Positions 26,682 through 43,758 of a DNA stretch of 64,000 nucleotides are shown here, one piece after another. Position 1 is the stretch's first letter, and every line of letters starts with the position of its first letter. Source of the stretch: Pseudothioclava arenosa (GTDB taxonomy: Bacteria; Pseudomonadota; Alphaproteobacteria; Rhodobacterales; Rhodobacteraceae); NCBI RefSeq assembly GCF_002358085.1, contig NZ_NTJD01000001.1, positions 62,001 through 126,000 on the forward strand. The letters are read 5' to 3'. The position numbers and the translations under genes are program-made. The notes under the pieces are model-generated. The model worked only from the letters and a program-made list of their open reading frames with translations, was not told where the DNA came from and ran no database searches.

Positions 26682-26684
26682 GGA

Positions 26685-27548: not shown

Positions 27549-27571
27549 TTTCGCGTCCTTTTGCTCGTGCC

Positions 27572-28138
27572 TCACTGCCGGGTCAGAAGGAGGTATTCGC
27601 CTGCGCCCCGCCTGACCAGCGAGAAAGTCTTGTTCTCGGGTTCAACATAACCCGGATCTTTGCGTTTTGCGAGCGCGATGCGCAGGTTTTGCCGGATCGA
27701 GTCCGATTGGCCACTATCGAGCGCATAGGCGGTTTCAAAGACGCGGGCAGCCTCCGCGACCTCGCCTTTCTCCATCAGCACGACGCCGAGGTTGTTCCAG
27801 GCCGGCACAAAGCGGTTGTCGGCGTCGATCGCGCGGCGCAGCACCTGTTCGGCCTGACCGAGCCGTCCGAGTTTCAGATTGGCTGATCCGATCGCCGAAA
27901 GCACATCGACCGTCGCGCCCTGGCTTGCGGCAGCGCGGTAATAGGCCTTGAGCGCGAGTTCATACTCGCCCGCGGCCATCAGCCGGTGGCCCACCGTCAA
28001 ACCGTCGATCGCCTCGCCCTCGGCCATGCCGGGCGCGTAGGGGCTTCCGGCAGGTGAGGAAAAGCCGCCTTGCGAACAGGCGGCCATCAGGCTCAGGGCG
28101 AGGGCGGCAAGGAGGCCGCGCAGGGAAGTTTGCATCAT
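27572..28138 (-). CDS. Short TPR lipoprotein, TadD-like
   Basis: A 188-residue lipoprotein with lipobox MAAC near residue 20 and about three TPRs, including VPAWNNLGVVLMEKGEVAEA. It starts at 28138 (a second ATG at 28135 is equally possible) just before the larger TPR lipoprotein. It resembles TadD in size class and location; the exact division of labour is unknown. Confidence 0.85.
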   Translation of the reverse strand: MMQTSLRGLLAALALSLMAACSQGGFSSPAGSPYAPGMAEGEAIDGLTVGHRLMAAGEYELALKAYYRAAASQGATVDVLSAIGSANLKLGRLGQAEQVLRRAIDADNRFVPAWNNLGVVLMEKGEVAEAARVFETAYALDSGQSDSIRQNLRIALAKRKDPGYVEPENKTFSLVRRGAGEYLLLTRQ

Positions 28139-28171
28139 GTCCTGCCCGCTTTGCTGGCGCGGGCAGGTGCC

Positions 28172-29167
28172 TCAGCGGCCAAGCATCTTGAAGTTCTCAA
28201 GCATATCATGGATCGAGGGGCCGACAAGGATGATCAGGAGCGGCGGCACGGTGAAGGCCATGGTGCCCAGCGTCATCTTGGTCGGGATCTTGTTGGCGAT
28301 TTCCTCGGCGCGCATCACGCGCTTGTCGCGCATGTCGGCGGCATAGAGGCGCAGCGCCTCGGCGATCGAGGTCCCGAATTGCTGCGACTGGATCATCACC
28401 GTCACGAAGCTCTGCACGTCGGGCAGCTCGGTGCGGGCCCCGAAGGCGCGCAGCACCGAGGGTTTATCAAGACCGGCCTTGATCTCATGGGCGACGGTCT
28501 CGAATTCCTCGCAGAGCGCGGGGTAGGAATTCGCCAGTTCCTTGGAGACGCGGATGATCCCCTGATCGAGCGATTGCCCCGCTTCGACGCAGACCAGCAG
28601 CATGTCGAGCGCATCCGGGAAGCCCGACTGGATCTCGGACTTGCGGGCCTCGACGCGCTGGTTCACCCAGCGTTTGGGCGCGTAATAGCCGAAGATGCCG
28701 GGCAGGACGACGGCCAGGATCATCTTGGTGGTGTCGAGCTGCGTGGCCTCGTTGGCATTGGCGAGGATGATGTAGCCCAGCCCGAGCACGACGCCGCCAA
28801 GGCCCAGCCCGAACTGGATCGCGTGGAAGGTGCGCACCGCATTGGGCGCCCGGTAGCCCGCGCGCTGCAGCCATTTGCGTGATTCCGACAGCTCTTCGGC
28901 CTTTTTCGGCTCCAGGAAGCCCGAGAATTTCTCGAGCTTGTCGGTGCCTGCGCCGGGGCGCAGCTGTTGCGCCTTGTCGGCCTTCTTGCCTATGCCCCGC
29001 TGGCCTTGGGGATTGCGCTTGTTACCCAACCGCTCCAGCGGATCGACCCGCTTCTTGAGCAACGAGGGCAGCGTGGCCAGAACCATCAGCCCGCCCACCG
29101 CGACAAGGGCGATCACCGGCCCCATCGGGCCAAGCTTTTCGGTCAGCAATGCGAGCAGTTGTTCCAT
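28172..29167 (-). CDS. tadC: Tad pilus inner-membrane platform protein TadC
   Basis: A 331-residue type II secretion F-domain protein with membrane helices at the N-terminus, in the middle and at the C-terminus. The GspF-like cytoplasmic segment contains GFPDALDMLLVCVEAGQSL and QSQQFGTSIAEALR. It partners TadB and TadA to assemble Flp pili. Confidence 0.94.
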   Translation of the reverse strand: MEQLLALLTEKLGPMGPVIALVAVGGLMVLATLPSLLKKRVDPLERLGNKRNPQGQRGIGKKADKAQQLRPGAGTDKLEKFSGFLEPKKAEELSESRKWLQRAGYRAPNAVRTFHAIQFGLGLGGVVLGLGYIILANANEATQLDTTKMILAVVLPGIFGYYAPKRWVNQRVEARKSEIQSGFPDALDMLLVCVEAGQSLDQGIIRVSKELANSYPALCEEFETVAHEIKAGLDKPSVLRAFGARTELPDVQSFVTVMIQSQQFGTSIAEALRLYAADMRDKRVMRAEEIANKIPTKMTLGTMAFTVPPLLIILVGPSIHDMLENFKMLGR

Positions 29168-29177
29168 GGGACTATCC

Positions 29178-30146
29178 TCAGACCTTGATCGTGGTCATGA
29201 CCTTCATGAAGGCGATGTTGCAGGCCAGCAGCACGAACACGGCGATCGCGGCGGGCATGAAATAGGGGGTTTCCTTGACGTCGTCGAAATAGTTCGGCGA
29301 GACCACCTGGATCACCACCAGCACGACGAGCGGGAAGGACGACAGGAACACGCCCGACCATTTCGGTTCGGCGGTGATGGCGCGCACCCGGCGGAACAGC
29401 CGGAACCGCGCGCGGATCACCTTGGCAAGGCCTTCGAGCACCTCGGCGAGGTTGCCGCCCGAGGTCTGCTGGATCGACACCGCCACCGCGAGGAAGCGCA
29501 AATCCTGCATGTCGAGCCGTTCGGCCAGCTCCTTGAGGGCATCGGCCATGTTGCGGCCATAGGCGGCCTCGTCGGCGATGATCCCGAATTCCGACCCCAG
29601 CGGGTCGGCGATTTCCTTGGCCACGGCCTGCACCGCCGAGGAGAACGGATGGCCCACGCGCAGGCTGCGCACCATCAGCTCCACCGCGTCGGGCAGTTGC
29701 TCTTCGGCGAGGCGAATGCGTTTGGAGGCCTTCATCGACACCCAGAGATAGACACCGCCCACGCCCATCACGATCGCGATGGCGATGCGCACCAGCGCCG
29801 CGGCTTCGGTCGCCACCGAGAGCCCGACAAAGGCAAAGGCGCTCAGCACCACCATCAGCAGCACCAGAACCATCGGCGAAAACGCGATATTCGCGAGCTG
29901 TGCCTTCTTGGCGAGCACCGAATACAGCGGGATGCCCTTGGCGTTCATGTGCTGCGTCGCCTGTTTGCGCAGCTGCTCCAGCACCTCGTCGCGCCGTCCG
30001 CCCTTTTCGAGCATCTCGAGGCGGCGGTTCACCCGGCTGTTGAGCGAGATCGACTTGCCGAAGGCCAGCACATAGATGCCCTCGACCAGCAAGATCACGG
30101 CGACGAAGATCAGCAGGTAGATGATCGGGGTGGGTGAGATGATCAT
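29178..30146 (-). CDS. tadB: Tad pilus inner-membrane platform protein TadB
   Basis: A 322-residue F-domain protein paralogous to TadC. The segment LPDAVELMVRSLRVGHPFSS and SIQQTSGGNLAEVLEGLAKV are TadB/GspF features. A helix at the extreme N-terminus and paired helices near residues 95-135 and 270-320 are visible. It lies ten bases upstream of tadC on the minus strand. Confidence 0.94.
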   Translation of the reverse strand: MIISPTPIIYLLIFVAVILLVEGIYVLAFGKSISLNSRVNRRLEMLEKGGRRDEVLEQLRKQATQHMNAKGIPLYSVLAKKAQLANIAFSPMVLVLLMVVLSAFAFVGLSVATEAAALVRIAIAIVMGVGGVYLWVSMKASKRIRLAEEQLPDAVELMVRSLRVGHPFSSAVQAVAKEIADPLGSEFGIIADEAAYGRNMADALKELAERLDMQDLRFLAVAVSIQQTSGGNLAEVLEGLAKVIRARFRLFRRVRAITAEPKWSGVFLSSFPLVVLVVIQVVSPNYFDDVKETPYFMPAAIAVFVLLACNIAFMKVMTTIKV

Positions 30147-30158
30147 GGCGGTCCCCTC

Positions 30159-31610
30159 TTAGTCCTGCACGGGTTCGTAGATCGAGGCGGGCAGATCGTA
30201 GCCCCACTGGCGGAAGCGGTCCGAGTAATGCGAGCGCACGCCGGTCGCGGTAAAGCGGCCGATGATCTTGCCATCGGGGGCAAGGCCCAGGCGCTCGTAG
30301 CGGAAGATTTCCTGCATCGAGATCACGTCGCCTTCCATCCCGGTGATCTCGGTGATCGAGACCATCCGGCGCGAGCCGTCCTGCAGACGCGAGGCCTGCA
30401 CGATCAGGTTCACAGCCGAGGCGATCTGCGAGCGCACCGCCTTGATCGGCATCTCGATCCCGGCCATGGCGACCATGTTTTCCAGACGGCTGATGCCGTC
30501 GCGCGCCGAGTTGGCGTGGATCGTGGTCATCGAGCCGTCGTGGCCCGTGTTCATCGCCTGCAGCATGTCGATGACCTCTTCGCCGCGGGTTTCCCCCACG
30601 ATGATCCGGTCGGGGCGCATCCGCAGCGCGTTGCGCAGACAGTCGCGCTGGCTGACCTCGCCCTTGCCTTCGACGTTCGGCGGGCGGCTTTCCATCCGGC
30701 CCACATGCACCTGCTGGAGCTGAAGTTCCGCCGTATCCTCGATGGTCAGGATGCGTTCGGAGTTGTCGATGAACGAAGACAGCGCGTTCAGCGTGGTGGT
30801 CTTACCCGAGCCCGTCCCGCCGGAGACGATGACGTTCAGGCGGGTCGAGACGGCGGCCTGCAGATAGGCGGCCATTTCCTCGGTAAAGGCGCCGAAGCGG
30901 ACAAGATCGTCGATGCCCAGCTTGTCCTTCTTGAATTTCCGGATCGAGACCAGCGAGCCATCCACCGCGATCGGCGGCACCATGGCGTTGAAGCGCGAGC
31001 CGTCTTTCAGGCGGGCGTCGACATAGGGTGTGGATTCATCGACGCGACGACCCACGGCCGACACGATCTTGTCGATGATGCGCAGAAGGTGGCGTTCATC
31101 CTTGAAGGTGATGTCGGTCAGTTCCAGCTTGCCCGAGCGTTCGACAAAGATCTGCTGCGGGCCGTTGACCAGAATATCGTTGACCGAGTCGTCTTTCAGC
31201 AAAGGCTCCAGCGGGCCGAGACCCATCACCTCGTCGTAAAGCTCGTTGTTGAGCGTCTGCCGGTCGGATTGGGTCAGCGCCACCGCCATGTCGTTCAGCG
31301 CCTCGGCGGTGATCGCACTGATCTCGTGGCGCAGATCGGCCTCGCGGGCGGTTTCCAGCGCGGCAAGATTGAGATTTTCCAAGAGCCGCTTGTGCAGCTC
31401 CACCTTCATCTCGCTCATCTTTTCCTTGCGCTTGCGCTCCTTGTCGGCGGCCATCGCCATCGCGGCGGCTTGCGGCGAAGGTTTGCGCTGTGCCGCGGCC
31501 ATCGCGCGCGCCTCAGGCGCGGGCTTCGGAGTGGCTTGCGGCACGGCCTGCAGAGGTGCTGCGCCAGCCGGAACCTTGGTGGGGGCGGGCTTTTTGTAAC
31601 GCGAGAACAT
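30159..31610 (-). CDS. tadA: Tad/Cpa secretion ATPase TadA (CpaF)
   Basis: A 483-residue hexameric VirB11/GspE-family ATPase that powers pilus assembly. The N-terminal 60 residues are Pro/Ala/Lys-rich; then come [20 protein letters not shown], Walker [14 protein letters not shown] and downstream [20 protein letters not shown] with the conserved Glu and His boxes. It lies between tadZ and tadB in the usual order. Confidence 0.96.
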
Positions 31611-31632
31611 CGGCGGGCCTCTGGGTTAAGGA

Positions 31633-32898
31633 TCAGGCGCCAGCCGCGGTCTCGGCCGCGTCATTGAGCGCATAAATGGATTGAGCGAGCTTCTGAATTT
31701 CCTTGCGGGCCGGGCACTTGGCGGCGCTCTCGGCCAGCGGCACGCCGTGGTCGTTGGCCTGCGTGGCGAGCTTGCCGACATCCGAGATCAGCACGTCGAT
31801 CGAGATGTCGAGGCTCTCGGCCATGCGCTTGATCCGCGACTTGCCGGTCAGGTCGGTGAATTTCGGCGCGCGGTTCAGCACGTAGCGCAGCTTTTCGGCG
31901 GGCAGCCCTTCGGCCTGCAGCGCGCGCACCAGCCGCAGCGCATTCTGCGCCGAGCGCATGTCCAGTTCGAGCAGCGCGAAATAGACATGCGCCTGTTTCA
32001 GCACGGCCTCGGTCCAGGACACGACAGTTTTCGGCATGTCGATCACGACGAAATCGAAATTCGCCCGTGCGATGTCGATCAGCCTGTCCAGATCTTCGGA
32101 GTTCAGCAGGTCGAGCGGCAGCATGTCGGCCGGCGCGGTCAGCACCTGCAGGCGGTCGTTAAAGGTCAGCAGCGCCTGCGAGAAAGACTCGCCATCCATA
32201 TTGGCCGTGTCGACGAGCAGGTCATAGACCAGCTCGCGCCGCGGCAGGTCGAGGCTGGTCGCGACCGAGCCGAACTGCAGGTCGAGATCGAGCAGGCAGA
32301 CGCGCGGCGGCGTGCCGGGGTCCTTCTTGGTGCCGAGGTTCAGCGTCGCCAGTTCCCAGGCGAGGTTGACGGCGAAAGTCGTGCTGCCGACACCGCCCGC
32401 CAGGCCATGCACGGCCAGCACAACGCCATCCTTGCCGCCCGTCGCCTTGAAGCCCGTGTCGCCATGCTGCGGCATCTCGGGCGGCAGTTCGGCCTGGCCA
32501 AGCCGCTCGATCGCCTCATGCAGGGCGCCTTCGGGCAGCGGGTAGGGCACGAAATCATCGGCGCCAAGACGCAGCAACTGGTGCAGCGCGATCGGGCTGA
32601 CCTCATCGGCGATCAGGATCACCCGGATCGCCTTTTCCTTGGCCAGCGAGATGATTGCGGAAATCCGGCTGAGGTCGCCCTCATCCTCGGCATCGACGGC
32701 GATCGCGATGAATTCCAGCGCATCGGCCTCGGGCTGCCCAAGAAACAACCCGGCATCGTCGAAACTCAGGTCGCCCCAGTTCTCGCCAAGCTCGGTCTCC
32801 ATGTCTTCGACCAGAAGATCGAAGTTGGAAACGTCGCGCGACACCGTGCACGCCAGAATCGGCGCGGGCTCGGGGTTCAAGACTGCAACTGCACTCAT
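31633..32898 (-). CDS. tadZ: Pilus localisation protein TadZ (CpaE), ParA/MinD-like
   Basis: A 421-residue protein with an N-terminal receiver-like domain and a C-terminal MinD/ParA-type ATPase domain. The P-loop reads GLAGGVGSTTFAVNLAWE: the usual Lys of the deviant Walker A (KGGxGKT) is replaced, as in the atypical TadZ group. The lines LLDLDLQFGS and FVVIDMPKTV fit the MinD fold. It targets the Tad machine to the pole. I chose the ATG at 32898; a 33108 start would add 70 atypical residues. Confidence 0.92.
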   Translation of the reverse strand: MSAVAVLNPEPAPILACTVSRDVSNFDLLVEDMETELGENWGDLSFDDAGLFLGQPEADALEFIAIAVDAEDEGDLSRISAIISLAKEKAIRVILIADEVSPIALHQLLRLGADDFVPYPLPEGALHEAIERLGQAELPPEMPQHGDTGFKATGGKDGVVLAVHGLAGGVGSTTFAVNLAWELATLNLGTKKDPGTPPRVCLLDLDLQFGSVATSLDLPRRELVYDLLVDTANMDGESFSQALLTFNDRLQVLTAPADMLPLDLLNSEDLDRLIDIARANFDFVVIDMPKTVVSWTEAVLKQAHVYFALLELDMRSAQNALRLVRALQAEGLPAEKLRYVLNRAPKFTDLTGKSRIKRMAESLDISIDVLISDVGKLATQANDHGVPLAESAAKCPARKEIQKLAQSIYALNDAAETAAGA

Positions 32899-33150
32899 CG
32901 CGTCGGTCCTTATCCAGATGGCCGGGACGCCCCGCGGGGAGGGGTGAGCTGAACCCCGCGATCGTTTCCAGGCCGGGTGCGACTCTGCGGACGCACCTCT
33001 CCTTTGCAGACCAAGATCGGCATCAATCTTGGCGAGATTGGGGCCGAATTTTTTCCATTGTGGGGATTTGGGCGACGATAACGGCAAAAATGCGGGCTTT
33101 GTTTTCACAAGCCCGCCCGAAGAGGAAACAATTCCGGTTGATTCTGTCGA

Positions 33151-33801
33151 TTAGTCGCCTTGGGTCGTGCCTTCGATCTGCGTGATCGGGATCACCGATG
33201 CCGAGCGGATATATTCGCGGAACACGACCTGCGCATATTTCCCGTTCAGCACCGCCGGATGCGAGTTCACGAAGCCCGAGACCTCGGTCACGGTGCGGCG
33301 ATTCTGCTCGTTCGGCTCCTGCGTGAAGATCAGCGGCTGGGTTTCGCCGTAGCTGACCACCGCTTCGAGGCGCGAACGCGAGATGCCTTGTCCGGTCAGA
33401 TAGGCAACGACAGCGCGGGCGCGCTTCATGCCCAGCGACTTGTTATAGGCATTGGTCCCGACGAGGTCGGTATGCCCGAAGACGCGGAAGCGGACTTCGG
33501 GGAATTGCTTGATCCAGTCGGCCTGCTGGCGCAGCACCGCCTGCGCCTCGGGGGTCAGAACCGCCGAGTTGAAGGCGAAGTTGACGGTGTTCGGCACCTC
33601 GCCCGCGAAACGCTTCGCCAGCGAGATGGTGAAGTCACGCGCGCCGCTCTGCACGAGCGTGTTGTTCATCGTGGCATTGCCGAAATAGCCGGTGTCGAGC
33701 TGGCTGCCAGCCTCCGAATAGAAGGCGCGGCCTTGCGGCCCGCAGGCCGAGAGTGCGAGCCCGGCGGCCAACGCCGCGATCCCGAGAAATGTCGTTTTCA
33801 T
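33151..33801 (-). CDS. OmpA-family lipoprotein of the tad locus
   Basis: A 216-residue lipoprotein with lipobox LSAC and a C-terminal OmpA domain (VRFRVFGHTDLVGTNAYNKS, MKRARAVVAYLTG). It probably fixes the secretin complex to peptidoglycan. Its position between cpaC and tadZ is common in alphaproteobacterial tad loci. A 252-base gap to tadZ holds no gene I recognise. Confidence 0.88.
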   Translation of the reverse strand: MKTTFLGIAALAAGLALSACGPQGRAFYSEAGSQLDTGYFGNATMNNTLVQSGARDFTISLAKRFAGEVPNTVNFAFNSAVLTPEAQAVLRQQADWIKQFPEVRFRVFGHTDLVGTNAYNKSLGMKRARAVVAYLTGQGISRSRLEAVVSYGETQPLIFTQEPNEQNRRTVTEVSGFVNSHPAVLNGKYAQVVFREYIRSASVIPITQIEGTTQGD

Positions 33802-33823
33802 CACTTTCTCCCGTGCCCGCTGC

Positions 33824-35251
33824 TCATTCCATCACATAGCCATAGGACCCCGAGAAGTCCTGCTTCGCCACTTCGGCCGCCGCACCCGATTTCGGGCCTT
33901 TCTCGGTCTTGCCGAAGAGGAAGAACTCAGCCTCGCTGGGCGGACGCACGCGGTCGGTCGGCAGCGCCAGCGCCTCGCCGCGCGTCGGCGTAACCAGATG
34001 CGGCGTCACGATAATCACCAGCTCCGACTGCTGGCGCGAATATTCCGCCGAGCGGAACAGCGCGCCCAGAACCGGGATGTCGCCCAGCCACGGCACCTGG
34101 CCGCTGAGGTCGTAGAAGTCGTCTTGCAGCAGGCCCGCGATGGCAAAGCTCTCGCCGTCGCGCATCTCGACGGTGGTCGAGGTGCGGCGGGTCTTGAAGG
34201 CGTTGACCGCAAAGCCGCCCGAGGACATCGACACCGAGGTATCGACGCCCGAGACCTCGGCTGCGATCTCGAGGTTGATCAGGTCACCATCGACGACGCG
34301 GGGCGTGAAGGCCATCGCGACACCGAAGGGTTTGTATTCGATTTTCACGCCGCCGTTGTCATCCACGACCGGGATCGGATACTCGCCACCCGCCAGGAAG
34401 TCGGCCTTCTGGCCCGACAGCGCGGTCAGGTTCGGTTCGGCCAGCGTGCGCACGGCGCCTTTCGATTCGAGCGCTTCCATCAGCACGGCGAATTCGAGGC
34501 TGCCTGCCGAGAAGCCAAGGCCAAGCGCGCCTTCCGTCGAGCTGTCGATCGGGATCGTGCCATTGCCGGTTTCCGGGAACGCGCCGGAGACCGCGCCCGA
34601 TTGGGTGAAGTTGCCGGTGCCGCCGATGATGCCGACATTGTCGCCAAAGCCCGTGCCCTTGATCGCGAGAGAGGCGCTGAGGTTCTTGGCGACCGAGCGC
34701 TGCATCTCGGCGAAGCGCACCTTCAGCATCACCTGTTGGGTGCCGCCGACCGACATCAGGTTCGAGACGCGGCCGGGAGCGTAGCGGTTCGCAAGGTCGA
34801 GCGCGCGGTCGAGTTTGGCCGAGGAAGAGACCGTGCCCGAGAGCACGATGCCGTCATTGGCGGTGCGCACCTCGATGCTTTCGCCGGGCAGGATCTGGCT
34901 GAGGCGTTCCTTGAACTCGCCGATATCCGGGGTGACCTGCACCTCGACATTGGTGATCAGCTTGCCGTCGCCGCCGAGGATCGTCATCGTCGTGCGGCCG
35001 GGGACCTTGCCAAGGATATAGATCGTGCGATCGGACAGCGTCGTGATATCCGCGATGCCGGGATTTGCGATCGAAAGCTCTGCGAAGGGCTGGTCGCTTT
35101 CGACCACCACGGCGCGGTTCATCGGGACCGAAAGCGGATTCGAGGCAGAGCCCGTCATCACGCGCAGCGTCTCCGCTTGCGCCGGCGACAGCGTGGCCAA
35201 AGCCAGTGCACTGCCCAGCATGCATGCTTTCAAGAAATTGCTCAGTTTCAT
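33824..35251 (-). CDS. cpaC: Tad/Cpa outer-membrane secretin CpaC (RcpA)
   Basis: A 475-residue secretin: signal peptide ending near AQAE, an N-terminal domain (VVESDQPFAELSIANPGIAD), a BON-like segment and the C-terminal secretin core with VMLKVRFAEMQR and the signature VPWLGDIPVLGALFRS. It forms the outer-membrane channel for the Flp pilus. Confidence 0.95.
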   Translation of the reverse strand: MKLSNFLKACMLGSALALATLSPAQAETLRVMTGSASNPLSVPMNRAVVVESDQPFAELSIANPGIADITTLSDRTIYILGKVPGRTTMTILGGDGKLITNVEVQVTPDIGEFKERLSQILPGESIEVRTANDGIVLSGTVSSSAKLDRALDLANRYAPGRVSNLMSVGGTQQVMLKVRFAEMQRSVAKNLSASLAIKGTGFGDNVGIIGGTGNFTQSGAVSGAFPETGNGTIPIDSSTEGALGLGFSAGSLEFAVLMEALESKGAVRTLAEPNLTALSGQKADFLAGGEYPIPVVDDNGGVKIEYKPFGVAMAFTPRVVDGDLINLEIAAEVSGVDTSVSMSSGGFAVNAFKTRRTSTTVEMRDGESFAIAGLLQDDFYDLSGQVPWLGDIPVLGALFRSAEYSRQQSELVIIVTPHLVTPTRGEALALPTDRVRPPSEAEFFLFGKTEKGPKSGAAAEVAKQDFSGSYGYVME

Positions 35252-35407
35252 TGTGACCTGCCTCTCCGATCACGCCAGGTTACAGGTCTGATGCCTGTTT
35301 AACGTGGTTTTTCTGCCCATTATTGCCGGTAGCATGCCGGAAACGTGGAATCTTTGCAAGAATCAACCGTTTGGCTTGCGATTTTCATGTGGGGAATGCG
35401 CAACAGA

Positions 35408-35433
35408 CCAAAGCCCGCCGGGTGGGCGGGCTT
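35408..35433 (-). terminator. Hairpin between cpaB and cpaC
   Basis: Perfect 9 bp stem AAGCCCGCC / GGCGGGCTT (35411-35419 / 35425-35433) followed on the minus strand only by a short T-run. It may cut part of the transcription from cpaB into cpaC and the rest of the operon. The T-run is too short to call a strong terminator. Confidence 0.5.
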
Positions 35434-35462
35434 CGGGTAATCGTCTGAATTCGCGGGGTACA

Positions 35463-36332
35463 TCAGTTCGTGCAGGGGATTTCGACTTCGACGAGTTCCC
35501 CGCCCTTGCGGTTGCGGATCGTGCAGATCTGCTTCTTCTCGACCCGGATTTCGGCGGCGCGTTCAATGCCCAGAAGCGTGTCACGGTCCAGCTCGATCGG
35601 GTTTGCGGCCGCGGTTTCGCTCATGCCCACAAGCGAAAGCGTCAGCTTGCCGGTCGACTGCGCGAGCGTGAGCGCGGCAACCTCTTCGGGCGAGACTTCC
35701 GCGGTGACGGTGCGGGCGATCTTGGTTTCTTCCGAGCGGTCCGCGTCGGCGCTCTGGTCGATCGCGATCAGTTTCACGCTCGACATGATGAGCTTGGTGA
35801 CCGGCGCGTCACTAATGCTGCCCGACCAGTAGACGTCGACGTAGCTGCCCGGACGCGGGAAGCCCGAAACGCCCGAGGTCGCATCGACCTTCATGGTGAA
35901 AGCGCGCATGCCCGGCGCGAGGTTCGCCGCGATCCCGGCATCGACGCCAGGCGGGGTGACCTTGGTCGCCAGAAGCGGCTCGAAGGGTTCATAAGAACGC
36001 AGGGCGGCGCGCGGGCGGGTCTCGCCTTCGGCAAAGGCCGCGACCTTGATCTCGGGGGCGGTCTGGGGCGCGGTCAGCAGGTGGAAGACACCCGCCGGCG
36101 TCTTGCCCTTTTGAACCTTGATCACTTCGAGGTCTGCGAGGGTAAAGCGCTCGCCGTATTTCAGCGGGCGTTTGACCACGACCACATCGATCATCGCCGG
36201 GGCGTTTTTCTGGGAGGCAAGCAGGTAGTCGCGTTCACGCTGGAACTGCGCAATCTGACCCTGCGCCATGTAAACGGCCATGCCGGCAAGTGCGATGCCA
36301 AGAGCCAGAAACAGGACAAAGACTAGACGCAT
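35463..36332 (-). CDS. cpaB: Flp pilus assembly protein CpaB (RcpC)
   Basis: A 289-residue periplasmic protein anchored by an N-terminal helix (MRLVFVLFLALGIALAG), with an SAF-like domain (VVVKRPLKYGERFTLADLEV) and a C-terminal CpaB domain. It ends in a Cys pair region (QICTIRNRKGG ... PCTN). It acts with the secretin. The ATG at 36332 is chosen over 36377. Confidence 0.93.
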   Translation of the reverse strand: MRLVFVLFLALGIALAGMAVYMAQGQIAQFQRERDYLLASQKNAPAMIDVVVVKRPLKYGERFTLADLEVIKVQKGKTPAGVFHLLTAPQTAPEIKVAAFAEGETRPRAALRSYEPFEPLLATKVTPPGVDAGIAANLAPGMRAFTMKVDATSGVSGFPRPGSYVDVYWSGSISDAPVTKLIMSSVKLIAIDQSADADRSEETKIARTVTAEVSPEEVAALTLAQSTGKLTLSLVGMSETAAANPIELDRDTLLGIERAAEIRVEKKQICTIRNRKGGELVEVEIPCTN

Positions 36333-36442
36333 CTTACTTTCCCTCGTTTTGCAACGGACCCCAACAGGCCGGGCCAAGCCTTACCATTCGGTCAAATTGC
36401 GGCTTTTTGGTGGCCGCGCGCCGCTCTCCCTGCGGCGTGTCG

Positions 36443-36811: not shown

Positions 36812-36834
36812 GATTTTTGCCTGGTGGGACCGAC

Positions 36835-37029
36835 TTAGAAGGTGGTCTTGACCGAGGCGGTGTTCAGGTAGCTGGCGATGTCGCCGGTCAGGGTGGCGGT
36901 TTCCTGACGGATCAGGGCCAGAGCGGCGGCGCCGAGGCCGACGACAGCAGCGGTGAGCACAACCCAGTCAACGGTCACAGCGCCGTCTTCTTCGTTGCGG
37001 AACTTGCGGGTCAGTTTGAACAGTTTCAT
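36835..37029 (-). CDS. flp: Flp pilin, copy 1
   Basis: A 64-residue prepilin: basic leader MKLFKLTRKFRNEEDG, predicted cleavage after Gly16, then AVTVDWVVLTAAVVGLG forming the hydrophobic assembly helix, and a tail with several Thr/Ser ending SVKTTF. The usual Glu5 of type IV prepilins is Asp and the usual Tyr of Flp (EY) is Trp. The start at 37029 has GGAGAGATCC directly upstream; a 37098 start would wrongly extend the leader. Protein identical to copy 3. Confidence 0.92.
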   Translation of the reverse strand: MKLFKLTRKFRNEEDGAVTVDWVVLTAAVVGLGAAALALIRQETATLTGDIASYLNTASVKTTF

Positions 37030-37243: not shown

Positions 37244-37269
37244 CCAGAAGCGCGAATTGCGCGACCAGC

Positions 37270-37464
37270 TTAGAAGGTGGTCTTCACCGAGGCGGTGTTC
37301 AGGTAGCTCGCGATGTCGCCGGTCAGGGTCGCGGTTTCCTGACGGATGAGCATCAGAGCGGCGGCGCCGAGGCCGACGACAGCAGCGGTGAGCACAACCC
37401 AGTCAACGGTCACAGCGCCGTCTTCTTCGTTGCGGAACTTGCGGGTCAGTTTGAACAGTTTCAT
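37270..37464 (-). CDS. flp: Flp pilin, copy 2
   Basis: A 64-residue prepilin that differs from copies 1 and 3 only by Met for Ala in the helix segment GLGAAAL(M/A)LIRQ. Leader, cleavage Gly and Thr/Ser tail are the same. The coding DNA is close to but not identical with the others, while its flanks are different, so it is an older duplicate partly homogenised with its neighbours. Ribosome site GGAGAGATCC is shared. The 287-base gap upstream (37465-37751) holds the copy-2 upstream region and the copy-3 terminator and no convincing gene. Confidence 0.92.
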   Translation of the reverse strand: MKLFKLTRKFRNEEDGAVTVDWVVLTAAVVGLGAAALMLIRQETATLTGDIASYLNTASVKTTF

Positions 37465-37520
37465 TGGATCTCTCCTTGGGGTGTCAGTGATCTGTTGCAG
37501 GTTAGCGCGCCGTTCGAACC

Positions 37521-37700: not shown

Positions 37701-37728
37701 GAAAAGAGCCACCCCGTAGGGCGGCTCT
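37701..37728 (-). terminator. Terminator after flp copy 3
   Basis: As in copy 1, but the single base change A37711 turns one G-C pair into a G-U pair in the minus-strand RNA. The hairpin is thus preserved. Confidence 0.85.
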
Positions 37729-37751
37729 GATTTTTGCCTGGTGGGACCGAC

Positions 37752-37946
37752 TTAGAAGGTGGTCTTGACCGAGGCGGTGTTCAGGTAGCTGGCGATGTCG
37801 CCGGTCAGGGTGGCGGTTTCCTGACGGATCAGGGCCAGAGCGGCGGCGCCGAGGCCGACGACAGCAGCGGTGAGCACAACCCAGTCAACGGTCACAGCGC
37901 CGTCTTCTTCGTTGCGGAACTTGCGGGTCAGTTTGAACAGTTTCAT
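37752..37946 (-). CDS. flp: Flp pilin, copy 3
   Basis: A 64-residue prepilin identical in protein and coding DNA to copy 1, inside the second unit of the 324 bp repeat. Same leader MKLFKLTRKFRNEEDG, Asp/Trp variant of the processing motif, and Thr/Ser-rich tail. It is the first pilin gene of the locus as transcribed. Confidence 0.92.
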   Translation of the reverse strand: MKLFKLTRKFRNEEDGAVTVDWVVLTAAVVGLGAAALALIRQETATLTGDIASYLNTASVKTTF

Positions 37947-38024
37947 TGGATCTCTCCGTTTGGGTCTCAGGGTTTCTCCGCGAAACTCTGGTCGACCTCT
38001 GACCGGGTTTAGCATCGCGGCATG

Positions 38025-38336: not shown

Positions 38337-39194
38337 ATGCGCCGAAATCAACTACTTGCGGCAGCGATGCTTGCGCTCCTTTGGGGCGCGCCGACGGTGG
38401 CCGAGGCCCCGGCGCCCGAAGCTTTCGACCCGTATAACGGCAAGGTGACGCCCAAGCGCGTGACGCCGCCAAAGCCTGGCACGCGGCGCTTTCTGACGAT
38501 CCAGATCGACCCGGCGGAGCAAGCGCGCGCCTTGGCGGTGCAGGCCGCGCAGCCTTTCACTCCGGTGACCAAACTGCCGGGGGGCGTCAAGCCCGCCTCG
38601 GGCCCCAGCCCCTATGATTGGTATTGGGAGCTGGTCTCGCCCATGCTGGCCGAGCGCGCGGGCCGCTTCGACAAGGCCGTCGCGGCGCTGTCGCAGGGGC
38701 CGGGCGGCAAGTCGGTCAACGCACCGCGCCTTGCCCATCTGCAAGAGATCGCGCAATCGCATGGCGCCGAGATCCTTTCGGCCACGATCGGCACCGAGGT
38801 TTCGCCCGCGCTGGTTCTGGCGGTGATCGCCACCGAATCCGGGGGGCGCGCCGAGGCGGTCTCGAAGGCCGGGGCCGTCGGGCTGATGCAACTGATCCCC
38901 GCCACGGCCGAGCGTTTCAAGGTCACCGACATTTCCAATCCCGGGCAGAATATCCGCGGCGGCGTGGCCTATCTGGATTGGCTGATGAAGGAATTCGACC
39001 GCGATCCGCTGATGGTTCTGGCCGCCTATAACGCGGGCGAGAATGCGGTGAAATCGAATGGGGGCGTGCCGCCCTATGCCGAGACGCGGGGCTACGTTCC
39101 CAAGGTTCTTGCCGCCTGGCATGTCGCGCGCGGGCTTTGCCTGACGCCGCCCGAACTGGTGACCGACGGCTGCGTCTTCGCGGTGAAAGGGTAG
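38337..39194 (+). CDS. Lytic transglycosylase (SLT domain)
   Basis: A 285-residue periplasmic enzyme with a signal peptide (LLAAAMLALLWGAPTVAEA) and a C-terminal SLT domain. The catalytic Glu lies in VIATESGGRAEAVSKAGAVG, followed by LMQLIPATAERF and LAAYNAGE. It cleaves peptidoglycan strands, perhaps to open a path for the pilus or another envelope machine. Its stop is two bases before the HAD-UbiA gene, so the two are one transcription unit. The exact start is uncertain; no good ribosome site precedes 38337. Confidence 0.87.
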   Translation: MRRNQLLAAAMLALLWGAPTVAEAPAPEAFDPYNGKVTPKRVTPPKPGTRRFLTIQIDPAEQARALAVQAAQPFTPVTKLPGGVKPASGPSPYDWYWELVSPMLAERAGRFDKAVAALSQGPGGKSVNAPRLAHLQEIAQSHGAEILSATIGTEVSPALVLAVIATESGGRAEAVSKAGAVGLMQLIPATAERFKVTDISNPGQNIRGGVAYLDWLMKEFDRDPLMVLAAYNAGENAVKSNGGVPPYAETRGYVPKVLAAWHVARGLCLTPPELVTDGCVFAVKG

Positions 39195-39196
39195 CA

Positions 39197-40648
39197 ATGA
39201 CCGAGATGACCGATGCGCAGCAGGCGCGCCCGCTTGTTTTGGACGTGGATGGTACGCTCTTGCGCACCGACCTTCTGTTCGAGGGCTTCTGGGCGGGGCT
39301 GGCCAAGGCGCCCCGTGCGACGCTTGGGGCCGCGTTGACGCATCTGGGGGATCGCGCCGCGCTCAAGGCCGAGATCGCGCGGGTCGCTGCGCTGCGCCTT
39401 GACCTGATGCCTGTGACGCCCAGCGTGGCGCGGCTGATCGACGAGGCCAAGGCCGAGGGCCGTGAGGTGATCCTGGCTTCCGCCTCGGATGAGGCACAGG
39501 TGCGCGCGCTGGCCGAACAGCAGGGCCTGTCGCCGCGCGTTTTCGCCTCGGATGGGCAAACCAATCTCAAGGCGGGCGCCAAGGCGCGCACGCTGGTCGC
39601 GGAATTCGGCGAGGGCGGGTTCGATTATGTGGGCGATTCCGCCGCCGATCGCGCGGTCTGGCCGCATGCGCACACCGCCTATGTCGTGGGCGACGCCAAG
39701 GCCGCATCGGAGCTTTCCGCCGCAGGCCAGCCTGTCGTCGAGCTTGAAGGCGGCTGGACGCTGCGCCGCCTGATCAAGGCGCTGCGCCCGCATCAATGGG
39801 TGAAGAACGTCCTGCTTCTCTTGCCGCTGATCGCCTCGCATCGCTTCGATCTGGCGACGCTGGTGCCGATCCTGCTGGGCATCGTCGCCTTCTCGGCGGC
39901 GGCCTCGTCGATCTATATCATCAACGACCTGCTCGACCTCGAGGCCGACCGCCGCCACCCGACCAAGTTCAAGCGCCCCTTCGCCAGCGGAGACGTCCCG
40001 ATTCCCGTCGGCATGGCGGCCTTTGTGGCGCTGGCGACACTGGCGCTGGGGCTCGGCGCCGCGCTGAACCCGGGGTTCTTCGGGGTCGTCCTGTTCTACA
40101 TGCTCCTGTCGCTCGCCTATTCGCTCAAGCTCAAGCGGATGCGCTGGGTCGATATCGCGACGCTGGCCTCGCTCTACACGATCCGCGTCGTCGCCGGCGC
40201 AGCGGCGGGGCAGGTCGATGTCTCGATCTACATGCTGATCTTCATCTTCCCGGTCTTCATTGCGCTCGGCTGCGTGAAACGCCTGACCGAACTGACGCTC
40301 GCCACCGGAGACGAGCGCCTGCCCGGCCGTGGTTATGGCCGGGCCGACCGTGGCGACCTGCTCAATGTCGCGGGCATCGGCGTCGTCGGCGCGCTGGTAA
40401 TTTTCTTTCTCTATTCCGTCTCGGATCAGGGCCGTGTTTTGTACCCCGACACATGGTTGCTTTGGCTCGCGATGGTGCCGATGGGCTGGTGGCTGATCCG
40501 CATGGTCGCGCTGGGCTGGTTCGGCAAGCAGGATTACGACCCGATCGTCTTTGCGCTGAAAGACAAGCTCGGGCTCGGCATCCTGATGATCACGCTCAGC
40601 CTGATGTTCTGGGCCGCAGGCCTCTGGGCTCAGTGGTTCGGCGGCTAA
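39197..40648 (+). CDS. HAD phosphatase-UbiA prenyltransferase fusion (DPPR synthase-like)
   Basis: A 483-residue fusion. Residues 10-180 are a HAD domain: nucleophile motif DVDGT (16-20), motif II SAS and motif III GDSAADR (146-152). From about 190 comes a polytopic UbiA prenyltransferase domain starting RPHQWVKNVLLLLPL, with ND-x2-D-x3-D (243-251) followed by HPTK..RP, as in mycobacterial decaprenyl-phosphate phosphoribosyltransferase rather than 4-hydroxybenzoate prenyltransferase. Proposed roles: UbiA joins PRPP to polyprenyl phosphate; HAD removes the 5-phosphate. It converges on dprE2- and dprE1-like genes, which supports the pathway. Confidence 0.85.
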   Translation: MTEMTDAQQARPLVLDVDGTLLRTDLLFEGFWAGLAKAPRATLGAALTHLGDRAALKAEIARVAALRLDLMPVTPSVARLIDEAKAEGREVILASASDEAQVRALAEQQGLSPRVFASDGQTNLKAGAKARTLVAEFGEGGFDYVGDSAADRAVWPHAHTAYVVGDAKAASELSAAGQPVVELEGGWTLRRLIKALRPHQWVKNVLLLLPLIASHRFDLATLVPILLGIVAFSAAASSIYIINDLLDLEADRRHPTKFKRPFASGDVPIPVGMAAFVALATLALGLGAALNPGFFGVVLFYMLLSLAYSLKLKRMRWVDIATLASLYTIRVVAGAAAGQVDVSIYMLIFIFPVFIALGCVKRLTELTLATGDERLPGRGYGRADRGDLLNVAGIGVVGALVIFFLYSVSDQGRVLYPDTWLLWLAMVPMGWWLIRMVALGWFGKQDYDPIVFALKDKLGLGILMITLSLMFWAAGLWAQWFGG

Positions 40649-40652
40649 ACCC

Positions 40653-40738
40653 CTTCATTTTGCTCAAAATATCCCCCGCGGAGCGTCCGGCGGCGGCCGT
40701 CGGAGCCTCCGGCGGGGATATTTGACGCAAAGTGAAAT
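40653..40738. repeat. Facing pair of family 2 repeats
   Basis: Left arm TTCATTTTGC..AAAATATCCCC (40653-40684) and right arm (40706-40738), read in reverse, share TTCA.TTTGC..CAAATATCCCC and the GCCGGAGG end. Together they can form a large imperfect hairpin between convergent genes and probably terminate both. A third copy is at 5909-5940. Confidence 0.6.
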
Positions 40739-41469
40739 CAGATCGAGAGTTTCTTGAACACCGGCTCCGGGATCAGCCGGATCACCGTCATGATCACCTG
40801 CCAGATCCGCGCGGTATAGACGACGTTGCGCTTCTTCTCGATCGCGCGCATCAGGTCGTCGGCCACGGCGTCCGGGGTGGTCATGAAGGGCATCTTCATG
40901 CCCTGCGTCATCGGCGTATCGACGGGGCCGGGCTTTACGGTGATGACATGGACGCCCTTGCGCCCGGCGCGGTTGCGTAGCCCCGAGAGGTAGGTGGCAA
41001 AGGCCGCCTTGGCGGCGCCGTAGACGTAATTGCCGAGCCGCCCGCGATCGCCCGCGACTGAGGCGATGCCCATCACCGTGCCCGCGCCGCGCGTCTCCAT
41101 TTCCGGGACCAGCATTTGCAGGAAGGTGGCGGGGCCGGTGAAGCTGTCGGCGATCACGCCCTCGATCAGCTCGGGGGTGGCGTCGATCTGCGCCTGTTCG
41201 GGCATCGAGCCGGCAAAGACGGCGGCGTTCAGTGTGCCCTCTTCCTGCACGAAACGGTCGATCAGCGCGGCGTAATTCGCCGGGTCGCGCGCATCGAAGG
41301 CCATGACTTCGGCCTTGGGCGCGCCACGCAACCGGCAATCGGCGGCCAGCGCCTCCAGTTCCTCCATCCGGCGCCCGGCAAGGAACAGTTGCGCGCCGCT
41401 TTCGGCGAGGCGGCGGATGAAGGGGCGGGCCATGCCGGAGGTGGCGCCAAGGATGATCCAGCTGTTCAT
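40738..41469 (-). CDS. SDR oxidoreductase, DprE2-like
   Basis: A 243-residue short-chain dehydrogenase. The nucleotide-binding motif is ILGATSGMARP; the catalytic residues are S137, Y150 and K154. The surrounding pattern SVAG-D-R-x-R...N-x-VYG-x2-KA closely matches mycobacterial DprE2, the NADH-dependent reductase that turns the 2-keto intermediate into polyprenyl-phospho-arabinose. The start is one base from the stop of the DprE1-like gene. General SDR function is certain; the specific role rests on motif likeness plus neighbours. Confidence 0.85.
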   Translation of the reverse strand: MNSWIILGATSGMARPFIRRLAESGAQLFLAGRRMEELEALAADCRLRGAPKAEVMAFDARDPANYAALIDRFVQEEGTLNAAVFAGSMPEQAQIDATPELIEGVIADSFTGPATFLQMLVPEMETRGAGTVMGIASVAGDRGRLGNYVYGAAKAAFATYLSGLRNRAGRKGVHVITVKPGPVDTPMTQGMKMPFMTTPDAVADDLMRAIEKKRNVVYTARIWQVIMTVIRLIPEPVFKKLSI

Positions 41470-41470
41470 G

Positions 41471-42766
41471 TCATGCAGTCCTCAGATGAAGGCGGCGCAC
41501 GAGGTCGGTGGCCAGCGCCCCTTGCGGGTCGGCCTTGGCCACCTCGGCCTGCCATTTTTCAAGATCGGGATACATCGCGCGGATCGCGGCCCCCTCGGCC
41601 AGCGAATCCTTGGCGAAATAGAGCCGCCCACCGGCTTCGGCGGTCATCGCCTCGAGCCGTTTGATCAGCACCCGGGCCTCGGTGCGGTTCGGGAAGTCGA
41701 TGGCGAGCGTGTAGCCTTCCATCGGGAAACTCAGGTATCCCGCGCGCCCCGGCCCCATGCGTTTGAGCACCGCGAGAGGCGAGGCCAGCCCCGAGCCTGC
41801 GATCTCGGCCAGCATCGCCTTGAGCGCGGCGGCCGCGCCCAAGGGCACGACGCATTGGAACTGATGAAATCCGCGCTGGCCGTAAAGCCGGTTCCAGTCG
41901 TGGATCTTGTCGAGCGGGAAAAAGAACGCCTCGAGTGGGCGTACGAGGGTGCGGCCATGCGCGGGCACGCGGTGGAAATAGGCCCAGTTGAAGGCGCGCA
42001 CCACGGGTTTCGCCAGTGCGAAATGAGGTGCGTCCATTGGCACGCGATGCGCGCCGCGGCGGCGTTTCATCAGGCCCGCGCCATTCTCGCCCTCTTCGAC
42101 GATGCCGCGGCCCATGTCGGCGCCTCTTGCGGTCGCGTCGATCCAGCCGACCGTGTAGCTGGCGGTGGAGCCATCGAGGAGCGCGAGATGTTCGTCCCAG
42201 TCATTGGCGCGCCGCTCGGTGACCAGCATCAGGTCGCCTTTACAGCGTTTCATTTGCAGCGTCGCGCAGGTGATCAGGCCGGTCTGGCCCAGCCCGCCCA
42301 TCGTCGCCTCAAACAGCGCGGAGCCGGGTGTGGCGGTGGCTTCGACGCCATTTTGCAGCAGCGTGACCTCGGCCACATGCTGGCCGAAGCTCCCGGCGTT
42401 ATGGTGGTTCTTGCCATGTACATCCTGCCCAATGCAGCCGCCGACCGTGGCAAAGCCGGTGCCGGGCATCACGGCGGGCATCCAGCCGCGCGGCGCAAAA
42501 GCCGTGGCGATATCGCCGATGCGGGCACCGGCCTCGACCTCTAGCAGCCCGGTTTCGGCGTCAAAACCCAAGAGCCGGTCAAAGCGGCTCATGTCCACGG
42601 CGCGCCCGCCCGAATTCAGCGCCGCATCCCCGTAGGACCGGCGCATCCCCATCGCGGGCGCATTGGACAGCGCGGCCAGATCGGCGCGGCTTTCGGGGCG
42701 GGCAACCTCGCCCGAGGCGCGCAGCGCGCGGCCCCATCCGGCGTAATCGGTCTGGGTCCAGATCAT
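41471..42766 (-). CDS. FAD-dependent oxidase, DprE1-like
   Basis: A 431-residue FAD-binding type 4 (PCMH/VAO) protein. It contains GRSYGD-type MRRSYGDAALNSGG, then PGTGFATVGG and the very characteristic HGKNHH-x-AGSFG (117-128), and near the C-terminus AKDS with K386. These match mycobacterial DprE1, which oxidises polyprenyl-phospho-ribose at C2. The position of the benzothiazinone-reactive Cys of DprE1 seems to be Pro here (ASPLAVLKR), by eye alignment only. Start overlaps the stop of the upstream UPF0104 gene by four bases (ATGA). Confidence 0.88.
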   Translation of the reverse strand: MIWTQTDYAGWGRALRASGEVARPESRADLAALSNAPAMGMRRSYGDAALNSGGRAVDMSRFDRLLGFDAETGLLEVEAGARIGDIATAFAPRGWMPAVMPGTGFATVGGCIGQDVHGKNHHNAGSFGQHVAEVTLLQNGVEATATPGSALFEATMGGLGQTGLITCATLQMKRCKGDLMLVTERRANDWDEHLALLDGSTASYTVGWIDATARGADMGRGIVEEGENGAGLMKRRRGAHRVPMDAPHFALAKPVVRAFNWAYFHRVPAHGRTLVRPLEAFFFPLDKIHDWNRLYGQRGFHQFQCVVPLGAAAALKAMLAEIAGSGLASPLAVLKRMGPGRAGYLSFPMEGYTLAIDFPNRTEARVLIKRLEAMTAEAGGRLYFAKDSLAEGAAIRAMYPDLEKWQAEVAKADPQGALATDLVRRLHLRTA

Positions 42767-43758
42767 GGGCGCACCTGTTGACTGCGAAGCGAGCGGCGCT
42801 CGGCCAGCGGGAAGGCGGCAAGCCCGATCGCGATCGCGAACCAGAGCGTGGTGAGGCGGATGATCGCGGTGGCGGGCACCGAGATTTCAAGCGGCACGCC
42901 CTCGAGTGTCAGGAGCGCGACCATCGCCGCCTCGGCGCCGCCAAGGCCGCCGGGCGCGCCGGTCAGCCCCCCGGCCAGCGTGGCAAAGACAAAAATCGCG
43001 ATCGCCTTGGCAAGACCGATGTCGGCGCCCATCCAGCTCAGCAAGAGGTCGAAGGCATAGCCCTCGGCGGTCCAACCCAGAAGCCCGAGCGCGAGGCTGA
43101 ACGCCAGCGTCGGCCCGTGGCTGAAACGCGCGAGCGTGCGCGCGGCGCGGCGGGCGCGGGCGAAGAGCCGGTCAAAACGGCCGGTGAGGCGATGGGCGAA
43201 GGTGATGCAGGCTGCCAGCAGGCGCGGGCGGGTGGCGACAATCGCGGCGGCAAGGGCCAGCACCGTCACCGGCAGTGCCCCGGCGATACCGCCCGCCGCG
43301 AGCGAGACCGAGCCACCAAGGATCAGCGCCATCGCAGCGAGGTCTCCGGCGCGATCCATCAGCACGAGAGGCGCGGTGCGTTCGACCGCCCAGCCGGTTT
43401 CGCGCTTGAGCCAGCGCATGCGCACAAGCTCTCCGACGCGGCCGGGCGTGACAGACATCGCGAAGCCGCCAAGGAAATGGCCCAGCGATTGCAGCGCGCC
43501 GACCTGCAGGCCGAGGCGGCGCGCCAAAAGGTGCCAGCGACCGGCGCGGAACAGGTAATTGACGAGCGACAGGCCCAGAAGGGCTCCGATCTGCCAGAGG
43601 CCGAGGCGCGAGGCCTGGGCCCAGCTTTCCTCCCACCCGGTCTGCGCCGCGAGCCCCGCAAGGCCGATACCCACCAGCGCCAGCAATCCGCCCAAAAGAG
43701 CGAAATCGCGCAGCCGACGGGCCGGAAGGACAGAGGGGGCGGTGTTCATGCTCATCAT
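42763..43758 (-). CDS. UPF0104/LPG-synthase-TM-like membrane protein
   Basis: A 331-residue protein with about eight membrane helices. The segments GGFAMSVTPGRVGELVRMR and ATLAGGLTGAPGGLGGAEAAM are typical of the UPF0104 family (lysylphosphatidylglycerol synthase membrane region, without its catalytic domain). Such proteins occur in lipid-linked glycan loci and are suspected lipid or sugar-lipid transporters. First gene of the DprE1/DprE2-like operon and translationally coupled to it. I chose 43758; 43755 and 43749 are also possible starts. Confidence 0.8.
   Translation of the reverse strand: MMSMNTAPSVLPARRLRDFALLGGLLALVGIGLAGLAAQTGWEESWAQASRLGLWQIGALLGLSLVNYLFRAGRWHLLARRLGLQVGALQSLGHFLGGFAMSVTPGRVGELVRMRWLKRETGWAVERTAPLVLMDRAGDLAAMALILGGSVSLAAGGIAGALPVTVLALAAAIVATRPRLLAACITFAHRLTGRFDRLFARARRAARTLARFSHGPTLAFSLALGLLGWTAEGYAFDLLLSWMGADIGLAKAIAIFVFATLAGGLTGAPGGLGGAEAAMVALLTLEGVPLEISVPATAIIRLTTLWFAIAIGLAAFPLAERRSLRSQQVRP

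Follow-up and report, generated by a model that had tools for sequence, protein, structure and literature searches.

A cassette beside a Tad/Flp pilus locus

The window analyzed here is a 64,000-nucleotide stretch of the 2.79 Mb genome of Pseudothioclava arenosa (contig NZ_NTJD01000001.1, positions 62,001 to 126,000), a member of the Rhodobacteraceae. It contains a four-gene cassette (39197-43755) encoding a HAD-UbiA fusion, a DprE2-like short-chain dehydrogenase/reductase (SDR), a DprE1-like flavin adenine dinucleotide (FAD) oxidase and a UPF0104 membrane protein, with catalytic residues intact. The cassette abuts a Tad/Flp pilus locus, and a gene for a GT-C-fold membrane protein lies at the far end of that locus (Table 1). 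An earlier note on this DNA had proposed a polyprenyl-phospho-D-arabinose pathway here; all four genes were found where it had placed them, and their family matches are far above chance. Translations of the four genes were searched against NCBIfam, Pfam and PDB sequences, and presence was counted across 149 sampled genomes of the family. Dozens of genomes carry orthologs of the cassette genes with their order preserved.

Enzymes of the predicted donor pathway

The HAD-UbiA fusion scores 519 bits against NF006088 (cut-off 351). Its UbiA domain contains the motif claimed for it, present as IND-x2-D-x3-D-RRHPTK, together with KR-x2-E. When set against quinone and heme prenyltransferases, the domain goes with decaprenyl-phosphate phosphoribosyltransferases, scoring 126-148 bits on models of the latter (best 147.7) versus 28.3 and 23.3 bits; on these NCBIfam scores, a quinone or heme prenyltransferase role was ruled out. 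The best PDB match of the protein is the mycobacterial decaprenyl-phosphate phosphoribosyltransferase 8j8j (E=1.3e-28). Residues N243, D244, D247 and D251 (loop II) and R362 and E365 (loop IV) are invariant in 33 orthologs. The host genome carries three further UbiA-family genes.

The phosphatase expected from the mycobacterial pathway is also present, but as the N-terminal HAD domain of the UbiA protein, which the earlier note had overlooked. The same HAD-UbiA layout occurs in the biochemically characterized Citrobacter ORF15, whose UbiA part makes polyprenyl-phospho-ribose-5-phosphate from phosphoribosyl pyrophosphate (PRPP) and whose HAD part dephosphorylates it (PMC11127046). The residues studied in ORF15 (Asp in HAD loop I; N, D, D, D in loop II; R, E in loop IV) are all found in the window protein, whose HAD domain is the predicted missing phosphatase of the pathway. 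D16 and D18 of its DVDGT motif are conserved, and the window protein also has S95, K125, D147 and D151. In 14/27 orthologs, about half, Asn replaces the motif IV Asp, D147; K125 varies in 5/27, and the Pfam HAD score of the fusion falls slightly under the gathering threshold. In Candidatus Rhodobacter lobularis, a HAD-UbiA gene near pilins is broken by a stop and matches as two overlapping pieces (L258-L259, G450:C2:3650105-3651537).

The DprE1-like oxidase contains the claimed motifs HGKNHHNAGSFG and AKDS. Set against other VAO families it goes with DprE1, the lead exceeding 300 bits (363.7 on the NCBIfam DprE1 model NF053785, runner-up family 39.6), and among PDB sequences DprE1 reaches 254 bits and xylitol oxidase 26. 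H117, K119, Y45, K335 and K386 are invariant in 38 orthologs; of these, H117, K119 and K386 are equivalent to what we take to be His132, Lys134 and Lys418 of mycobacterial DprE1. A355 aligns with the presumed position of the benzothiazinone-targeted cysteine of the mycobacterial enzyme and is Ala in all 38 orthologs, which include both DprE1 types described below. The SDR, whose SVAG and Y-x3-K motifs are likewise present, has an S137, Y150 and K154 catalytic set that is invariant in 39 orthologs. DprE2 is its top match both among named models and among solved structures (mycobacterial DprE2 80 bits in the PDB, next SDR 64), and the SDR gene adjoins the oxidase gene in all loci read.

With the oxidase, the UbiA domain and the SDR matching DprE1, the phosphoribosyltransferase and DprE2, respectively, the lipid-linked D-arabinofuranose (D-Araf) donor proposed in the earlier note is supported at the level of sequence, and production of polyprenyl-phospho-D-arabinofuranose is highly probable. 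The accompanying statement that this sugar is not routine in the family was too strong, as DprE1 occurs in about one third of the sampled genera and in 52/149 sampled genomes. That note ended at the donor; assigning a flippase and an arabinosyltransferase and linking them to the pilus, as set out below, goes beyond it.

The UPF0104 protein

The UPF0104 gene and the start of the oxidase gene overlap by 4 bp. The protein matches PF03706 (157 bits versus 33.4) and TIGR00374 (74.7 versus 43.2), and its model (pLDDT 90) has the fold of the MprF flippase domain (Foldseek E 2.4e-5; VIA Z 20-23, next fold 6.5). On account of this fold, a role of the UPF0104 protein as the arabinosyltransferase itself was ruled out. 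An ortholog is found in 39/40 genomes with DprE1 of the type encoded in the window and in 1/109 others, and it adjoins DprE1 in the loci read. UPF0104 proteins, as MprF homologs, have been predicted by comparative genomics to be flippases of glycosylation systems (PMC5898192); for the pentofuranose systems known so far, no flippase activity has been proven (PMC11127046). The modeled fold and the gene context make it likely that this protein is the flippase of lipid-linked D-Araf, presumably moving it outward.

Two other arrangements are of interest for this assignment. A second cluster type (L030, L064, L070, L071, L072) holds HAD-UbiA and DprE1/DprE2 together, away from the Tad locus, and in 4/5 of the clusters of this type that were read, UbiA and DprE1 are separated by a GtrA-family protein; UPF0104 would fill the slot taken there by GtrA. 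The only genome with UPF0104 and without DprE1, G142, carries it directly after HAD-UbiA, with a PMT_2 transferase following. That cluster (L067, G142:C29, 8955-15367) lies near an exosortase gene and encodes HAD-UbiA, UPF0104, the PMT_2 transferase, which is of the GT-C type, and a Wzy-like protein. It contains no DprE1 or DprE2 and is probably a ribofuranose version.

A GT-C membrane protein at the far end of the locus

A hydropathy scan of the whole window revealed a 556-residue protein with about 10-11 membrane segments. Its gene is flanked by the prepilin peptidase gene and one labeled MoxR, which we take, judging by its sequence, to encode an AAA-type ATPase. The protein has no Pfam, NCBIfam or PDB sequence match, including GT87, PMT_2, Arabinose_trans and AftA; among 37 members of its family, two reach GT87 at E=0.023. 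Its AlphaFold model (pLDDT 93.4) has a GT-C fold, for which Foldseek returned AftD first (E=2.2e-4) and then ArnT (1.2e-3), with probability 1.0. Structural realignment with VIA gave Z 13.1 for ArnT and 12.9 for AftA, and down to Z 5.4 the list consists only of GT-C enzymes and related oligosaccharyl or glycosylphosphatidylinositol (GPI) transferase subunits. Because helical membrane proteins can reach such Z values by chance, weight is placed on the uniformity of this list and on coverage of the whole protein.

In an alignment of 37 homologs, an ExD motif follows helix 1, with E38 nearly invariant and D40 invariant; it would lie in the first extracytoplasmic loop. H43, H59, D61, R147, C448 and C518 are also invariant, and the two cysteines would suit a disulfide in a periplasmic domain. 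Relative to Pfam and NCBIfam entries this is a new GT-C family, with TfpW and GT136 (ORF12) set beside it by description only. It is very likely that the protein uses the lipid-linked D-Araf donor. Distant homologs outside the Rhodobacteraceae (G224, L226; G343, L227) were considered as Azorhizobium noeP and rejected, their neighborhood having no nod genes, UbiA or DprE1.

Distribution of the cassette and the GT-C gene

Two types of DprE1 were split by identity to the window protein, with borderline cases placed by context: the window type in 40 genomes (identity ≥47%, including one contig-end fragment at 62%) and the second type in 12 (42-48%). The GT-C protein occurs in 39/40 genomes with window-type DprE1 versus 4/109 others (Fisher 4e-30, ignoring kinship). 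The sole window-type genome without it, G146, is 76% complete. Three of the four others are G019, with HAD-UbiA and DprE2 at a contig edge; G136, with the second DprE1 type on the same contig; and G137, with a weak match elsewhere in the genome.

Where the cassette is present, the order is MoxR-[GT]-CpaA-Tad genes-pilins-SLT-[UbiA, E2, E1, UPF]-CoA transferase-TopA. About 40 cassette-less genomes have the same order with both bracketed sites empty. The SLT to CoA-transferase distance is 18-506 bp in empty sites (one outlier, 1136) and 3.2-6.0 kb in occupied ones, and the CpaA to MoxR distance is <600 bp when empty (one outlier) and 1.5-2.2 kb when occupied. The CpaA-MoxR outlier is a ferric-reductase-like gene in a cassette-less genome (G100, L133 15054-16358).

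Joint switching was examined on a tree of five concatenated Tad proteins from 64 genomes, a quick tree on which gain and loss are not distinguishable. The cassette has switched at least 8 times on it. Among independent pairs, the GT-C gene follows the cassette in 7/8 and does the opposite in none (p=0.016); the exception, G136, has the other DprE1 type. When either DprE1 type is counted and the weak G137 match omitted, 0/64 genomes are discordant and 7/7 pairs agree (p 0.016).

The association also extends to genomes in which the parts are unlinked. The GT-C gene lies far from the cassette in G004, G036 and G164. Relatives reached through the GT-C protein include Rhodobacter, Thioclava, Defluviimonas, Phaeovulum, Tropicimonas and others, all Rhodobacterales or more broadly labeled metagenome-assembled genomes, and all ten named genomes reached in this way alone carry window-type DprE1 (60-76% identity). 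In R. capsulatus and its nearest relatives, three loci share the parts: HAD-UbiA and the pilins lie with the Tad cluster, UPF0104-DprE1-DprE2 adjoins the CoA transferase gene, and the GT-C gene stands next to MoxR. R. capsulatus DSM 1710 and R. viridis retain the whole kit, each part having been located; in the other Rhodobacter genomes, pilins, CpaF, UbiA and the GT-C protein were confirmed. The lack of Tad genes next to the R. capsulatus GT-C gene was considered as an argument against a pilus link and rejected, since the Tad cluster, pilins and UbiA stand at another locus.

The pilus locus and its pilins

The SLT gene belongs to the conserved locus whether the cassette is present or absent. 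Three 300-bp direct repeats (36784-37083, 37219-37518 and 37701-38000) each contain one 64-residue Flp pilin gene. The first and third are identical and the second is 78% identical, which suggests recent duplication or gene conversion. Flp pilins have previously been suspected of glycosylation (PMC12307814). The Ser/Thr fraction of the pilin tail is slightly higher with the cassette (p 0.01-0.03, uncorrected), a difference that loses significance on the tree and is not counted as support.

Table 1. Features of the cassette, the GT-C gene and the adjoining pilus locus in the window.
Feature	Position	Strand	Remarks
HAD-UbiA (PRP-PPPRS) fusion P0001	39197..40648	+	HAD domain ~4-180, UbiA domain 190-474
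DprE2-like SDR reductase P0002	40738..41469	-	predicted 2-keto-erythro-pentofuranose -> arabinofuranose
DprE1-like FAD oxidase P0003	41471..42766	-	predicted C2 oxidation of polyprenyl-P-ribose; NCBIfam, PDB matches
UPF0104 / LPG_synthase_TM protein P0004, predicted flippase	42763..43755	-	PF03706, MprF flippase fold
GT-C-fold membrane protein, 556 aa, predicted polyprenyl-P-arabinofuranose:acceptor arabinosyltransferase	24434..26104	+	loop-1 motif HEGDTLHL
Tad/Flp pilus cluster, whole	26178..36336	-	
CpaA prepilin peptidase	26178-26681	-	
Two TPR proteins (TadD-like)	26685-28138	-	
TadC	28172-29167	-	
TadB	29178-30146	-	
CpaF	30159-31610	-	
CpaE	31633-33108	-	
OmpA-like	33151-33804	-	
CpaC secretin	33824-35251	-	
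CpaB/RcpC	35463-36336	-	
Flp-type pilin, divergent copy, 65 aa	36443..36640	-	G/AVTVD prepilin motif
Flp-type pilin copy 1, 64 aa, candidate acceptor	36835..37029	-	
Flp-type pilin copy 2, 64 aa, candidate acceptor	37270..37464	-	
Flp-type pilin copy 3, 64 aa, candidate acceptor	37752..37946	-	
SLT lytic transglycosylase	38337..39194	+	PF01464; 2 bp upstream of UbiA gene

Proposed route and alternatives

In the proposed route, the UbiA domain would move phosphoribose from PRPP onto polyprenyl phosphate and the HAD domain would strip the 5'-phosphate. Acting on the lipid-linked ribofuranose, the DprE1-like oxidase would then oxidize C2 and the DprE2-like SDR would turn the ketone into the arabino epimer by reduction. 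The UPF0104 protein would carry the lipid-linked D-Araf to the periplasmic leaflet, where the GT-C protein would pass the sugar on to an acceptor in the periplasm. Ser/Thr residues of the small Flp pilins are the likeliest acceptor, with another Tad component as the alternative. The enzyme identities of the first two steps and the GT-C and MprF-like folds come from tool results; from these we infer the donor identity, the direction of flipping, the acceptor and the linkage. Because the cassette and the GT-C gene, at the two ends of the pilus cluster, are gained or lost together, the bacterium probably decorates its own pili with D-Araf. The full chain, ending in D-arabinofuranosylation of Flp pilins or of another Tad part, is fairly probable, and position together with joint switching points to the Flp pilin as a plausible leading candidate for the acceptor.

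Several observations weigh against this proposal. For the enzymes, the oxidase (363.7 bits) and the SDR (146.9 bits) fall under the NCBIfam equivalog cut-offs of 500 (NF053785) and 250 (NF053786), and the SDR scores higher on an unnamed SDR model, PRK07102 (259.9, cut-off 267); since the equivalog cut-offs are unmet, the two are regarded as DprE1/DprE2-type homologs and not as mycobacterial equivalogs. Several genomes without a linked UbiA gene have only a more distant, unlinked HAD-UbiA, and none was found in G103 and G141. The fourth genome with a GT-C protein and no window-type DprE1, G126, is a real exception, having a distant homolog without DprE1 or pilin. For the pilus, most family genomes with Flp pilins carry no cassette, and thus the pili do not need it. 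Furthermore, a C-terminal [ST]x[YF] pattern in the pilins, picked after viewing the data, is found in 18/34 cassette genomes versus 1/41 and is non-significant on the tree (p about 0.2). The adjacency to the pilus genes could also reflect a shared chromosomal neighborhood.

In a doubtful but serious alternative, the donor would be real, the acceptor would be an envelope glycan (lipopolysaccharide, capsule or exopolysaccharide) or a non-pilin surface protein, and the pilus adjacency would be inherited gene order. O-polysaccharide is the target of most characterized three-component pentofuranose systems, and pilin sequence features fail to separate the groups after tree correction. Moreover, Marivivens donghaensis (G141/G181; L069/L223) is without the Tad core, pilins and UbiA and keeps UPF0104, DprE1, DprE2 and the GT-C gene; its DprE2 gene abuts a TadD-like gene, a remnant of the Tad cluster. 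This state may have arisen by recent deletion, or it may point to a different acceptor. On the other hand, the two halves bracket the Tad cluster and show at least 7 joint switches, the loci read showed no polysaccharide genes next to either half, and UbiA remains with the Flp pilins where the parts are scattered, as in R. capsulatus and its relatives.

For the third step, the UPF0104 protein might instead be an accessory, for example a lipid remodeler, with a housekeeping transporter doing the flipping. To our knowledge, no stand-alone UPF0104 protein has been shown to flip polyprenyl-phosphate sugars, and G036 has a UPF0104 fragment only. This alternative is nevertheless unlikely in view of the MprF flippase fold, the near-perfect co-occurrence with window-type DprE1, the GtrA in the same slot of the other cluster type, and the placement of the G142 UPF0104 gene between HAD-UbiA and the PMT_2 transferase.

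For the donor, it is very improbable that the pathway ends at polyprenyl-phospho-ribofuranose or yields another pentofuranose, with the oxidase and the SDR performing different redox chemistry. Besides the sub-threshold DprE1 and DprE2 scores, this possibility could draw on the about a dozen family genomes with HAD-UbiA and no DprE1 (e.g., G068, G090, G110, G111, G112, G122, G134, G159 and G162), likely ribofuranose or xylofuranose systems, and on the fact that a different SDR makes xylofuranose (Xylf) from the same precursor. Against it, the oxidase has the catalytic residues of DprE1 in all orthologs, the invariable adjacency of the SDR gene holds in the loci read, and Araf in solved glycans is accompanied by DprE1/E2 homologs, which occur wherever side-chain Araf is known (PMC11127046). 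Lastly, the GT-C protein might have nothing to do with the cassette, the two being passengers that track each other through shared ancestry only. The relatedness of most genomes and the kinship-blind Fisher values might encourage this idea, but it is largely refuted by the independent-pair test (7/7 or 7/8) and by the retention of both when unlinked.

Comparison with known systems

The donor pathway itself belongs to a known kind, found in mycobacteria, Azorhizobium, P. paraeruginosa and Citrobacter. Like the mycobacterial pathway (Rv3806c, Rv3807c, DprE1, DprE2), that of the window has a UbiA phosphoribosyltransferase, a DprE1-like oxidase and a DprE2-like SDR by sequence. Unlike it, the window has a HAD domain fused to UbiA in place of the phosphatase Rv3807c, UPF0104 in place of the small SMR-type Rv3789, and Ala in place of the inhibitor cysteine of DprE1; an arabinogalactan wall is not expected in this lineage. 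Compared with mycobacterial AftA, AftB, AftD and Emb, the GT-C protein is nearest to AftD and AftA in fold and has no sequence similarity to them.

Pilin arabinosylation is known from P. paraeruginosa, where the GT-C enzyme TfpW puts D-Araf on type IVa pilins and thereby protects from pilus-dependent phages (PMC12369383). The Pa5196/PA7 system (PSPA7_6245-6251, TfpW) resembles the present one in its D-Araf donor genes for pilins, its GT-C transferase (TfpW being compared by description) and its sporadic distribution. There, however, the pili are of type IVa and the donor island RGP80 lies away from the pilin locus, whereas here the donor and transferase genes flank a locus for Tad/Flp (type IVc) pili; modification of the pilin is demonstrated in P. 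paraeruginosa and is what we infer here. In Citrobacter youngae O1/O2 (ORF12, ORF14, ORF15), a PRP (HAD)-PPPRS (UbiA) fusion with equivalent catalytic residues and the same logic of lipid donor, flippase and GT-C enzyme serve to place ribofuranose (Ribf) or Xylf onto O-antigen by means of a MATE flippase and GT136, in contrast to the DprE1/E2 proteins, UPF0104 and different GT-C protein found here. Azorhizobium, also of the Alphaproteobacteria, has noeCHOP, in which homologous donor functions are predicted for noeC, noeH and noeO (PMC2443382), but with the Nod factor as acceptor and the genes in a nod operon. What is new in the window is the Tad pilus context, the two-ended arrangement, the unannotated GT-C protein and UPF0104 in the flippase slot. 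No account of this combination, of arabinose on Flp/Tad pili or of DprE1 in Rhodobacter was found in the literature searched, which covered few subscription papers.

Implications

On balance, we lean slightly toward the view that Rhodobacteraceae, including R. capsulatus, O-glycosylate Flp pilins with D-Araf by means of a new GT-C family and a stand-alone UPF0104 flippase, which would constitute a second, independently assembled form of pilin arabinosylation. If this is true, the DprE1/DprE2 pathway, a main tuberculosis drug target, would gain a function in a large environmental group that includes easily grown laboratory species. A GT-C transferase family outside every Pfam and NCBIfam entry would be named, and stand-alone UPF0104 proteins would be given a concrete candidate substrate. 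Because arabinosylation of Pseudomonas pilins protects from pilus-dependent phages, it may further be conjectured that phages drive this trait of Tad pili, whose cassette is patchily distributed and has switched repeatedly.

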